Positions 2,609-6,423 of a stretch of 44,897 bases of DNA are shown here, one piece after another (position 1 is the first letter of the stretch; every line of letters begins with the position of its first letter). The translations under genes and the position numbers were made by a program. Under the pieces are notes generated by a model, which was not told the origin of the DNA, ran no database searches, and saw only the letters and a list, made by a program, of their open reading frames with translations. The DNA is from Nitrospinota bacterium (lineage in GTDB: Bacteria > Nitrospinota_A > UBA7883 > JACRGQ01), in contig JACQEX010000043.1 of the NCBI GenBank assembly GCA_016200345.1, positions 1-44,897 of the forward strand, in the 5' to 3' direction.

Positions 2609-4498
2609 CTACCGAACAATTCGGAAAATAAAATGACCCCGGTGGGTACGCATTTTAATGTGTACATTGGCGCGGAGCGACAATTTGTTATTGCAGTACA
2701 GGCTGAAGCCCGTACCTACCGTTTCAAATTTGACGGATGTTGCCGACAAGGGATGGTCCATCGCGCTCAACGCCTCGCCTGCTATCCGCATCCCCACTTC
2801 GGCGGCTTTATCGCCGGCCGCCGAGAGCTGGGCGCGAACGTCCTCCGGCACGCTCATCCCCGGCACCTCGTTGTGCAAAAACTCCGCCATTCTGAGCGAG
2901 GCGAGCGGCAGGATTCCAATCATAAGCGGAATTTTTATCTCCGGTATCATGTCCAGAAATTTCTCAAAAAGAACCGTGTCGAACACCGGCTGGGTGTAAA
3001 TAAACTCGGCGCCGCTCTCCACTTTTTGGCGAAGACGGCCCACCTCCTCGGCAATGTTGATGGCGGCGGGATTTACGCCGACCCCGATGTGAATCGCGGT
3101 CGGCTCGCCGATGCGGTTTCCGGCCACGTCCAGCCCGTGGTTGAGGTTGCTGATTATTTTGACAAGGCCGATCGCGTCCACGTCGTAAACCGCCGTTGCG
3201 TCCGGATAGTTGCCCAGCTTCGGCGGGTCGCCCGTGACCGCCAGTATGTCGTGCAGACCCAGGGCGTGCGCCCCCAAGAGGTCGGACTGCATCCCCAAAA
3301 TATTTCTGTCCCTGCACGTGTAGTGCAAAACCGGGTCCACGCCGCCGTTTCTTTTTATAAGTACCGCGAGGGACATCGGGCTCATCCTCGCGGAGGCCCT
3401 CGGCCCGTCCGGGATGTTGCACGCGTCCACGCCCGCGTCCTTCAATTTTTTCGTAATCTCCAAAACCTTGGCCGGGTCGCACCCCTTGGGCGGAAGTATC
3501 TCGACGCAGGTCGCAAACTTCCCCTCGGAAAGTTTTTTAGCAAGCGGCGACTTTAACTCCCTCGGCACCGGCTTTACCGCCTCCTCGGGCTTTTCCTGTT
3601 TTGTCTCTATCTGCACCCTGGACGGCGAAAGGGCGCGAACCGCGTGGTGGATGGCGCGAATGTGCGCCGGCGTGGTTCCGCAACAACCGCCGATGAGCCG
3701 CACACCGGCGCGTATCAGCCGCTTGGCGTAGGTCTCCAAATATTCCGGGGTGGACATATAAACCATCCTCCCCTCGTGCATCCGCGGGTACCCGGCGTTC
3801 GGCATGGCGGAAACCGGTTTTGCGGTGGATGACAAAAGCCTCGGAACTATTTCCAGCATCGGCGCGGGGCCGACGGAACAATTCATCCCGACCACGTCCA
3901 CCGGCAGGGAGTCCATCGCCCGCGCCACTTTTTCAATCGGGTCGCCCATGGACGTCATTCCATCCTCGCCGAAGCTCATCTGCGCCACAATTGGAATCGT
4001 GGTCGAGACCTTTCGGGCTGAGGCGACGGCTATCTCCAGTTCGTCCAGGCTTGTGAACGTCTCCAAAATTAAAAGATTCACGCCCCCCTCGACGAGCGCG
4101 GAGATTTGTTCCTCGAAGGCGGCCGACGCGTCCTCGCGCCTGACGGCTCCAAGCGGGGCGATGCTTGCGCCAAGCGGCCCGACGGAGCCAGCCACGTACG
4201 CTCCGCCGCGCGCCTCGTACACCGCGTCCTTGGCGGCGGCGAGGCAAATTCCCCGCACCGACTTTTCAAGCCCATATCTGGCGAGGCGAAAACGGTTCGC
4301 CCCGAAGGAGTTCGTCTCGATCAAGTCGGCCCCGGCGGCGATGTATTCCCGGTGAACCTCGCGCACGAGCTCCGGGCGGGTGAGGCTCAACTGCTCCCAC
4401 GAATGGGTTATGTACTCCCCCTTTGAGTAAAGGTACGTCCCCATGGCGCCGTCCGCCACAAGCACCCGTTCGTTAATCGCCTCTAGAAACCCCTTCAT
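2609..4498 (-). CDS. Bifunctional homocysteine S-methyltransferase / methylenetetrahydrofolate reductase, C-terminus encoded by a repeat
   Basis: N-terminal homocysteine methyltransferase (VADGAMGTYLYSKG, LIETNSFGANRFRL, IGGCCGTTPAHIRAI) plus MTHFR domain (CVEILPPKGCD, HYTCRDRN, ILAVTGDPPKLG, FIYTQPVFD). Confidence 0.9.
   Translation of the reverse strand: MKGFLEAINERVLVADGAMGTYLYSKGEYITHSWEQLSLTRPELVREVHREYIAAGADLIETNSFGANRFRLARYGLEKSVRGICLAAAKDAVYEARGGAYVAGSVGPLGASIAPLGAVRREDASAAFEEQISALVEGGVNLLILETFTSLDELEIAVASARKVSTTIPIVAQMSFGEDGMTSMGDPIEKVARAMDSLPVDVVGMNCSVGPAPMLEIVPRLLSSTAKPVSAMPNAGYPRMHEGRMVYMSTPEYLETYAKRLIRAGVRLIGGCCGTTPAHIRAIHHAVRALSPSRVQIETKQEKPEEAVKPVPRELKSPLAKKLSEGKFATCVEILPPKGCDPAKVLEITKKLKDAGVDACNIPDGPRASARMSPMSLAVLIKRNGGVDPVLHYTCRDRNILGMQSDLLGAHALGLHDILAVTGDPPKLGNYPDATAVYDVDAIGLVKIISNLNHGLDVAGNRIGEPTAIHIGVGVNPAAINIAEEVGRLRQKVESGAEFIYTQPVFDTVLFEKFLDMIPEIKIPLMIGILPLASLRMAEFLHNEVPGMSVPEDVRAQLSAAGDKAAEVGMRIAGEALSAMDHPLSATSVKFETVGTGFSLYCNNKLSLRANVHIKMRTHRGHFIFRIVR
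2622..2728. repeat. 107-bp direct repeat, copy 2 (element core 2641..2720)
   Basis: Second copy, 128 bp downstream of copy 1; overlaps the 3' end of the MTHFR ORF. Confidence 0.9.
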
Positions 4499-4974
4499 GC
4501 AGGAGGGCTCTGGTTCACGCGAAGGCTCGAAGACGCGAAAGAGGTATGGTTGTTGACAATTCGTTTTGTCCCTTCCTTGAAGGTGGAGGAGCCAAAATTA
4601 ACCAATAAACCCAAGGGTAAATCAAGAAGTCGAAGATACGTAAGAACCTGCTTGCCATGTACCGGCGCAAGTGTTTCCACGGATTTAAGTTCAACTACAA
4701 GTTTTTCATTTACCAAAATATCCAACCGCAAACCTTCCTCGAAAAGCATTCCGTCGAAAGTAAACCCGACCGATTTTTGCCTCTCCCCCTTTAAATAACG
4801 CTTTTCCAAAGTCCGCGCCAATACGGCCTCATAAACGGATTCCAAAAGGCCGGGCCCCAGTTCCTTGTGGATATGAAACGCCGCATCCACGACTATGGCG
4901 GACAACTCTTCAACGTCCAAATTTTTCGCGTCCTTCGCGCCTTCGCGTGAGACCTTCAGATATTCCGAGTTCAT
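4495..4974 (-). CDS. GxxExxY protein (PD-(D/E)XK nuclease-like fold)
   Basis: HIHKELGPGLLESVYEAVLARTLEKR, LRLDILVNEKLVVELKSVETLAPVHGKQVLTYLRLLDLPLGLLVNF: GxxExxY family hallmarks. Overlaps both neighbours by ATGA. Confidence 0.9.
   Translation of the reverse strand: MNSEYLKVSREGAKDAKNLDVEELSAIVVDAAFHIHKELGPGLLESVYEAVLARTLEKRYLKGERQKSVGFTFDGMLFEEGLRLDILVNEKLVVELKSVETLAPVHGKQVLTYLRLLDLPLGLLVNFGSSTFKEGTKRIVNNHTSFASSSLRVNQSPPA
4516..4949 (-). mobile_element. Candidate TIR-bounded cassette carrying the GxxExxY gene
   Basis: Left end cacgcgaaggctcgaagacgcgaaa (4516..4540); right end (4924..4949), reverse-complemented, reads cacgcgaaggcgcgaaggacgcgaaa: one mismatch and one 1-nt gap. Confidence 0.4.
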
Positions 4975-6365
4975 TTTCCTTTGCCTTCAATCTCGGCCTT
5001 GAGGGAGGCGTAGCCGTCCTTGCCCATCATCGCGTACGCGAAGTTTTTGCCGAACTCCACGCCCGGCTGGTCAAACGGGTTGATGTTGTAAAGCCCGCCG
5101 GAAAACGCCGTCGCGTGCTCCAACATATATATAAGCTGTCCCACCGTATACTCGTTTATCTCCGGCACCTTAATCGTCATGTTGGGCCTTTGGTGCTTCG
5201 TAAGGGCGTACTTCGTCCCTTGTAGCTCCACGCTGATGAGCTCGTTCATGCTCGACCCGGCGAGGTAGGAGACGTCCGGCTTGTCCTTGAAAATTTCGGG
5301 TATGCCGACGGAGGCGCGAAATTTTTCCACCTCTATGAAAACGGCAATCTTGTCGGCCGGCCCCTCCACGTAAAGCTGTACCTGCGAGTGCTGGTCGGTG
5401 GCGCCCAGCGCCTTTATCGGGGTCTGTCCGCAGTGGATTTCTTTTCCGTCTCGCGTTTTTGCCTTTCCCAGACTCTCGCCCCACAACTGGGCGAACCAGT
5501 CCGCGATTCCGTAAAGGCGCGACGAGTACGGCATCATCACGACCATCGGCTTTTTCTTCGCCGTGTCGGCCAAATAATTTATGGCCGAGAAAAGATAGGC
5601 GGGATTGTCCGCTATCTCCGGGGCCTCGCAGAGCTTTGCCATTCGCGCGGAGCCCTCCATCAGCCGGTCTATGTTCAGGCCGGCGCAGGCAAGCGGCAGA
5701 AGCCCGACGGCGGAGAATACGGAAAAGCGCCCGCCGACGTTTGGCGGCACCTCGAACGAATCGAGCTTGTATTCGTCCACTATCTCGCGCAAAATCCCTT
5801 TTTTCGGGTCGGTGGTTACGACCACCTTTTTCTTCCATTTTCCCTTCAGTTTTTTGTTCAGCATGTCGAACACGACCATGAACTGGCTCATCGTCTCGGC
5901 GGTGGCGCCGGATTTTGAGATGACGTTGAAAAGCGTTTTTTTCGGATCCAGCACGGACAAAAGCTCGCCGAAATGCTCAGGGTCTATGTTGTCCGCCACA
6001 AAAAGGCGCGGATAGCCGTTTCGTTTGCGCTTTGTGAGAAGGTTGGCGAAGTTTTTATTGACGGCGTTGTTCACGGCGGTGGTTCCGAGCGCGGAGCCCC
6101 CGATGCCCAACACCACGAAATTTTCAAATTTCTCGCGCGTTTTTGCGGCGTATTTTTTTATTTTTGAGACGTCCTGGTCGTGCAGGGTAAAAAAGCCCAT
6201 CTCCGACTTCGCCTTCAGCTCGGCGAGCCACTTGTGGGTGGCCGCCCCTTTTTCGCGAAGGGATTCGAAATCGCCCCGCGCCAAACCGTGCGTCGGGCCG
6301 ACGGCCGATTCCATCACGTTGGAATAATCAATGGTAACGTCCTGCCTGTAGTCCTCGTTTTTCAT
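4971..6365 (-). CDS. pgi: Glucose-6-phosphate isomerase
   Basis: FVVLGIGGSALGTTAVNNA, FNVISKSGATAETMSQF, VVTTDPKKG, PPNVGGRFSVFSAVGLLPLA. Start placed at MKNEDYRQ because GGGAGG lies just upstream; the supplied ORF extends to 6401. Confidence 0.95.
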   Translation of the reverse strand: MKNEDYRQDVTIDYSNVMESAVGPTHGLARGDFESLREKGAATHKWLAELKAKSEMGFFTLHDQDVSKIKKYAAKTREKFENFVVLGIGGSALGTTAVNNAVNKNFANLLTKRKRNGYPRLFVADNIDPEHFGELLSVLDPKKTLFNVISKSGATAETMSQFMVVFDMLNKKLKGKWKKKVVVTTDPKKGILREIVDEYKLDSFEVPPNVGGRFSVFSAVGLLPLACAGLNIDRLMEGSARMAKLCEAPEIADNPAYLFSAINYLADTAKKKPMVVMMPYSSRLYGIADWFAQLWGESLGKAKTRDGKEIHCGQTPIKALGATDQHSQVQLYVEGPADKIAVFIEVEKFRASVGIPEIFKDKPDVSYLAGSSMNELISVELQGTKYALTKHQRPNMTIKVPEINEYTVGQLIYMLEHATAFSGGLYNINPFDQPGVEFGKNFAYAMMGKDGYASLKAEIEGKGK

Positions 6366-6423
6366 CGCCAGCCTCCCATGAAAATTCAATCCAAACAGCA
6401 AACCGCCAAGGATATCGGGAATT

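Follow-up and report, generated by a model that had tools for sequence, protein, structure and literature searches.

A GxxExxY gene between pgi and MTHFR

The window analyzed here is the whole stretch of 44,897 nucleotides of contig JACQEX010000043.1 from the Nitrospinota bacterium assembly GCA_016200345.1. An open reading frame of 159 aa at 4495-4974 on the minus strand was confirmed between a pgi-like gene and a methionine synthase/MTHFR-like gene. As an earlier note on this DNA had described, this frame shares an ATGA with each neighbor, its ATG with the stop codon of pgi and its stop codon with the start of MTHFR. The near-perfect inverted repeats which the same note had placed just inside both ends of the frame were also recovered, at 4512-4540 and 4924-4954. 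The features are as follows.

4495..4920, minus strand: GxxExxY nuclease gene, most likely coding sequence, with a TTG start at 4920 (141 aa; the longest frame is 4495-4974, 159 aa)
4971..6401, minus strand: upstream neighbor, pgi-like gene, coding up to the ATGA overlap
2609..4498, minus strand: downstream neighbor, methionine synthase/MTHFR-like gene, with an ATGA overlap
4512..4954, no strand assigned: whole insert of 443 bp between the host genes, delimited from the empty sites L052, L053, and L054
4924..4954, minus strand: 5' arm (outer end 4954), GGTCTCA followed by the three tandem units CGCGAAG, CGCGAAG, and CGCGAAA with G and GA between them; GAAGGA precedes the TTG
4512..4540, plus strand: 3' arm (outer end 4512), GGTTCA followed by the three tandem units CGCGAAG, CTCGAAG, and CGCGAAA with G and A between them; in frame, it encodes the protein C-terminus SFASSSLRVN

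The 3' arm reads GGTTCACGCGAAGGCTCGAAGACGCGAAA at 4512-4540, and the 5' arm reads GGTCTCACGCGAAGGCGCGAAGGACGCGAAA on the minus strand at 4954-4924. An inverted-repeat search of the region returned no inverted pair other than these arms (18 nt at 94%). Their alignment score is 43 against a control maximum of 34 (280 placements, 80 other GxxExxY loci), the gap penalties of the two computations differing by one unit. The repeats had been described as arms of 25 and 26 bp; the inverted pair is real, but each arm consists of three tandem units of about 8 bp and is not a plain 25-mer.

The TTG at 4920, just inside the 5' arm, is more likely to be the start of the gene than the ATG of the longest frame, since this register matches the Sphingomonas homologs, which start directly after their arm. 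An in-frame start lies downstream of the 5' arm in 52 of the 56 loci with clear arms. With this start, the 5' arm in the window would probably supply a Shine-Dalgarno-like GAAGGA ahead of the TTG, a ribosome-binding-like sequence rather than codons. The proposal that the repeats are coding therefore holds for the 3' arm of the window, as for that of 18 of 56 loci, and probably not for the 5' arm. In 33 of 56 loci, the stop codon precedes the 3' arm, so coding by that arm is incidental, and conservation of the arms as coding sequence is ruled out as a general cause.

In three genomes of the same family (L052, L053, and L054), pgi and MTHFR are adjacent without the insert, with about 10 bp from the pgi stop to the MTHFR ATG. 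The window thus carries an insertion of about 443 bp, which is bounded by the arms as expected of a cassette with terminal inverted repeats, and an ordinary operon gene kept in place is ruled out by these three relatives. The comparison with related genomes, which the earlier note had proposed for defining both the empty site and any target duplication, provided the former only: no target duplication was seen at empty/filled pairs, whose flanks are too diverged to define one. Across GxxExxY loci, the upstream neighbor is co-directional in 53 of 64. Elsewhere in the window, positions 58-2508 encode an 816-aa NHL-like protein with repeated DGTGTGARF...GLTTDGTNLYVADTTNNTIR units, overlapped by long antisense frames.

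Inverted arms at GxxExxY genes across phyla

Each locus was scored by the strongest inverted repeat pairing the 220 bp on the upstream side of the domain with the 220 bp on its downstream side. The scan covered 80 GxxExxY loci from a genome collection, representing at least 12 phyla by record titles; they are the closest relatives of the window protein, and distant PF13366 branches lie outside the scan. The controls were 280 placements shifted by 1.5-2.5 kb inside the same loci. Inverted arms (score of at least 28) were found at 70 of the 80 loci and at 2 of the 280 control placements (medians 42 and 18), which rules out a chance inverted repeat. When upstream arms were paired with the downstream arms of other loci, the median score was 19. 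Among the full-length loci of the set of relatives of the window genome, L040 and L047 have no such arms.

Enclosure between inverted arms is the rule at GxxExxY genes, each arm being built from about three 8-bp units in tandem. The units are arranged head to tail, consist of CGC or CAC followed by RRAG, and are spaced by 1-2 bp; the letters vary between elements. The median size of the elements is 471 bp. Within an element, both arms change in concert. Mismatches between the arms average 1.16 within a locus and 1.65 in same-type shuffles (0/2000), and the unit spacing and spacer lengths of both arms agree in 44 of 45 loci. Between L277 and L310 (genomes G145 and G192), one 8-bp unit is missing from both inner arms of L310. 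Across phyla, the distance between nucleases correlates with the distance between arms (Mantel r 0.54, 0/2000 permutations).

The encoded nuclease

The product of the frame at 4495-4974 matches TIGR04256 (E 4.6e-37) and PF13366 (PDDEXK_3; E 6.8e-37), and its 126.9 bits exceed the curated cut-offs of 35 and 22. Matches in Pfam and NCBIfam were to PDDEXK_3/GxxExxY only, with no transposase, HUH, or strand-transfer domain. Numbered from the TTG, the motifs are E27 (in GxxExxY), D67, E77-x-K79, and Q91xxxY95, which constitute the PD-(D/E)XK set. In 77 sequences, H18, G22, G24, E27, Y30, D67, E77, K79, N108, and F109 are invariant, and Q91 and Y95 are nearly so. The earlier assignment to PD-(D/E)XK-like nucleases is borne out by both the family cut-offs and the catalytic motifs.

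The domain fills the whole 117-aa core with no further domain. The predicted structure has a pLDDT of 90.8, and its best Foldseek matches in the PDB are Cas4 SSO0001 and lambda-type exonucleases, which are weak (E 6e-3); no convincing sequence relative was found in the PDB. The median dN/dS is about 0.09, and nearly all Sphingomonas copies retain intact catalytic motifs. These values indicate purifying selection on a nuclease whose catalytic residues are all in place. Cargo of phages or plasmids is ruled out as an explanation of the gene: the window protein has no match in phage records, GxxExxY genes occur in 8 of 72,556 plasmid records, and 3 loci were found in 2.9 million viral contigs.

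Exchange of cassettes at the fabD-fabG junction

In Sphingomonas, 58 of 90 fabD-fabG junctions hold a GxxExxY cassette, all in operon direction, and the remaining junctions are mostly empty (15-43 bp). Three arm types (GGAG, GAAG, and AGAG) are distinguished. On the host tree, which like the other Sphingomonas trees was built from short genes, the arm type changes 27 times, which is the random level (27.3 in shuffles). On the tree of core residues of the nuclease, it changes three times (27.4 in shuffles, minimum 21), and the result is the same whether the arm-coded residues are included or only the core columns are used. The difference between 27 and 3 changes indicates that the nuclease and the repeat travel as one cassette.

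In 33 close pairs of differing type, the nuclease DNA is 66% identical, whereas fabD and fabG are 92% and 91% identical, as in same-type pairs. In L204, L212, and L216, near-identity reaches to the outer arm ends, and in L208 and L239, a relic GAAG left arm adjoins an AGAG cassette. It follows from the diverged nuclease between intact neighbors, the extent of the identity, and the relic arms that nuclease and arms are swapped as one cassette at a fixed place in the chromosome, with the neighbors left unchanged.

Other occupants of such sites were also observed. Three Sphingomonas genomes (L188, L191, and L182) have other inserts longer than 1 kb at fabD-fabG, replacing the cassette. The cassette-free junctions L232 and L252 (fabD-fabG) and L296 sometimes carry unrelated GTCATCCCGGCGAAAGCCGGGATC-type hairpins, which may represent a second palindrome family attracted to the same intergenic sites.

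Dispersed gene-less elements

A search for further copies, as proposed earlier, found two GxxExxY genes in the window genome, where the arm core has 16 exact matches, several of them as inverted pairs 70-190 bp apart. The gene-less copies are dispersed through the genome, mostly as hairpins formed by inverted pairs of 70-220 bp. Gene-less inverted pairs measure 137-139 bp in Novosphingobium G048 and 120-220 bp in Sphingomonas G145. Their interiors are unlike the GxxExxY gene, resemble no gene remnant, and contain hairpins of their own. Three examples, folded as single strands, gave much stronger folds than shuffles did (z -5.6 to -10.4). Some elements are composite: an element of one type is nested inside a pair of a different type, with about 10 bp separating the two. 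At other intergenic sites, gene-less elements differing in type and interior occupy the same place in different species. Three loci which hold elements in gene-positive species are empty at the orthologous sites of the gene-free genome G147.

Several layouts differ from that of the window cassette. The second GxxExxY gene of the window genome (L001/L034, G000 C15:1-1000) has near-identical gene-less hairpins of about 130 bp on both sides, with CACGGAG/CACAGAG arms and in direct repeat, a composite layout. One-sided composites in C24, C74, and C93 of the same genome (L006, L015, and L016) have a CGCGAAG arm beside an inner CACGAAA-type element; this third repeat type has no matching nuclease gene in the incomplete genome G000. 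In Sphingomonas G145, L276, L278, and L283 are three copies of a larger unit with a central hairpin and about 45 bp of common flank per side, one of them in the opposite orientation.

Association of the repeats with the gene

Repeat-dimer matches number 11-277 in 57 gene-positive Sphingomonas genomes and 0-6 in 22 genomes with an empty junction (n = 79); these are counts of dimer matches of three types, not of elements, and a single element can account for as many as four. For CGCGGAG dimers, the control with the pattern reversed is non-independent because a periodic repeat reads the same backwards, and the conclusions on the repeats rest on the gene-free genomes. A whole-genome search found the gene as a single copy in nearly all gene-positive genomes. 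The genomes with an empty junction have no copy anywhere, except G072, in which a copy sits at a different place, between arms of another type. On the fabD+fabG tree, the gene switches between present and absent at least 10 times, and all eight phylogenetically independent pairs show the repeats following the gene (p 0.0078).

Outside Sphingomonas, the comparison was drawn from the set of relatives of the window genome. Strict triads were found in all seven relatives with the gene and in 2 of the 33 without it (Fisher p 2e-6, kinship ignored). G001, from the same genus as the window genome, has neither the gene nor triads, and the two exceptions, G004 and G035, have one or two triads without the gene. 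Separately, G006 has 48 triad matches and a truncated GxxExxY gene (L039, C44:5939-6076); the repeats may outlive the gene, or another gene copy may have been missed.

The repeat is abundant, one half of the situation which the earlier note had named as refuting its proposal; the other half, a lack of association with GxxExxY genes, is not found, the repeats being strongly tied to gene-carrying genomes. Most gene-positive genomes carry all three repeat types despite having one nuclease, and enrichment of the own type is significant for GAAG and AGAG and not for GGAG. The comparison between gene and repeats was made for GxxExxY only. As for causal direction, loss of the gene could follow loss of the repeats, or a third gene could track both.

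Comparison with known systems

In REPIN/RAYT, a single-copy chromosomal enzyme, not seen on plasmids, keeps dispersed doublets (PMC8049555). Similarly, GxxExxY is a single-copy chromosomal enzyme gene which is associated with a repeat and is absent or rare on plasmids, and dozens of non-autonomous inverted hairpin doublets are more numerous in enzyme-carrying genomes. The enzymes differ: GxxExxY is a PD-(D/E)XK protein resembling Cas4 and lambda exonuclease, whereas RAYT is an HUH (Y1) tyrosine transposase. Also unlike REPIN/RAYT, the GxxExxY gene lies inside one of the elements, the arms are three tandem 8-bp units, and enzyme and repeat are exchanged together, as a cassette, at a fixed site. 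Compared with the single-copy, vertically inherited enzyme of REPIN/RAYT, GxxExxY is single-copy, but its cassette type departs from the host tree. As an HUH enzyme is absent, these elements do not belong to REPIN/RAYT, and the statement which stands is that they work like it.

The gene-less copies resemble MITEs accompanying a parent insertion sequence in being short non-autonomous elements which share terminal inverted repeats with a gene-bearing element. Unlike in that case, a transposase of the DDE or any other kind is missing, the comparisons showed no duplicated target, and the gene-bearing parent exists as a single copy. Homing endonucleases of the freestanding kind, PD-(D/E)XK ones among them, are likewise small intergenic nuclease genes with cassette replacement at fixed sites; GxxExxY cassettes differ from them in having terminal inverted repeats and dispersed gene-less copies, and no shared target was noticed. 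The motifs E, D, ExK, and QxxxY and the predicted fold are shared with Cas4/RecB-like nucleases. Unlike Cas4, the 117-aa core of GxxExxY has no iron-sulfur part, and its neighbors are pgi, MTHFR, fabD, and fabG with no CRISPR locus. A GxxExxY gene has been found where CRISPRone called cas4 (PMC8934634). In the open-access literature searched, the papers naming GxxExxY give no function, repeat association, or mobility, and no description of mobility or of an enzyme-repeat partnership was found for GxxExxY/PF13366.

Interpretation

The window cassette is probably the enzyme-bearing member of a family of dispersed hairpin elements which depend on the nuclease, comparable to REPIN/RAYT and served by an unrelated PD-(D/E)XK enzyme that recognizes the repeat. 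We infer both a direct action of the nuclease and the mechanism of copying. The nuclease would bind the tandem units, probably as a hairpin or cruciform, and would nick or resect there. Fold-back repair synthesis could then equalize both arms, and break repair could copy elements into new or formerly occupied intergenic sites. Given a Cas4/exonuclease-like fold with no strand-transfer chemistry, copying would have to rely on host repair. The cassette itself would pass between strains by replacement bounded by the terminal inverted repeats, not by multiplication within a genome. A broader and more tentative proposal is that these elements form their own class of mobile DNA, which would have spread to at least 12 bacterial phyla. 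Its sole protein may be a minimal Cas4/lambda-exonuclease-like nuclease which recognizes hairpin arms of tandem units, and the breaks may be turned by host repair into new copies and homogenized arms, with no transposase, recombinase, or reverse transcriptase.

The original proposal of a minimal one-gene mobile or homing cassette stands in so far as the insert is bounded by its repeats, relatives have the empty junction, arms are usual at GxxExxY genes, and whole cassettes are exchanged at one Sphingomonas site; a stand-alone, multi-copy, or randomly homing gene is not supported, the gene being single-copy in nearly all Sphingomonas carriers and rare on plasmids and the repeats being mostly gene-less. 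As a full explanation, in which the nuclease cuts unoccupied junctions, recombination copies the cassette in, and gene-less copies are decayed by-products, homing is unlikely. It would account for an insert bounded by terminal inverted repeats with empty sites and for at least 27 exchanges at fabD-fabG on the host tree, and freestanding PD-(D/E)XK homing nucleases exist. However, a single gene copy accompanies dozens of gene-less elements, whose hairpin-bearing interiors resemble no remnant of the gene, and an unsystematic look noticed no recognition site common to pgi-MTHFR and fabD-fabG.

It is improbable that another, unseen enzyme spreads the repeats and that the GxxExxY gene only happens to lie within one copy or to be under its regulation. 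Such a passenger role is compatible with the missing strand-transfer domain, with gene-less elements outnumbering the gene, and with GxxExxY being the only gene compared with the repeats; arms around these genes in at least 12 phyla, near-zero repeats in genomes without the gene, and the co-phylogeny of nuclease and arms all argue against it. Still less probable is an RNA or regulatory element, in which arms and hairpins act in operon mRNA (as terminators or in processing or translation control) and the arms covary through selection for pairing. The positions between operon genes, the ribosome-binding-like sequence in the 5' arm, the strong hairpins, and the co-directional upstream neighbors are in accordance with it. 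PD-(D/E)XK enzymes act mostly on DNA, however, and this reading leaves unexplained the dispersed gain together with the nuclease, the exchange of cassettes, and the arms of tandem units which flank a nuclease gene in many phyla. A defense-like locus, with nuclease types under diversifying selection, repeats marking or protecting self, and alleles swapped by homologous recombination, would agree with frequent type exchange between intact flanks, a single copy, and purifying selection inside the family, but the neighbors read are metabolic genes and the arms enclosing the gene are left unexplained, and it deserves almost no weight.

With nuclease-dependent hairpin elements as the preferred reading, GxxExxY proteins, which are common and unexplained, gain a testable role through their link to a repeat. 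Many environmental genomes contain intergenic repeats such as CACGGAG-CACAGAG or CGCGAAG-CGCGAAG, which are now tied to GxxExxY. The fabD-fabG locus offers a ready comparison, with three enzyme-repeat types repeatedly exchanged at one site. If the interpretation is true, bacteria would have a second, independently evolved REPIN-like system, based on a nuclease with no strand-transfer chemistry, and the copying of its elements would become a direct question on DNA repair at hairpins.
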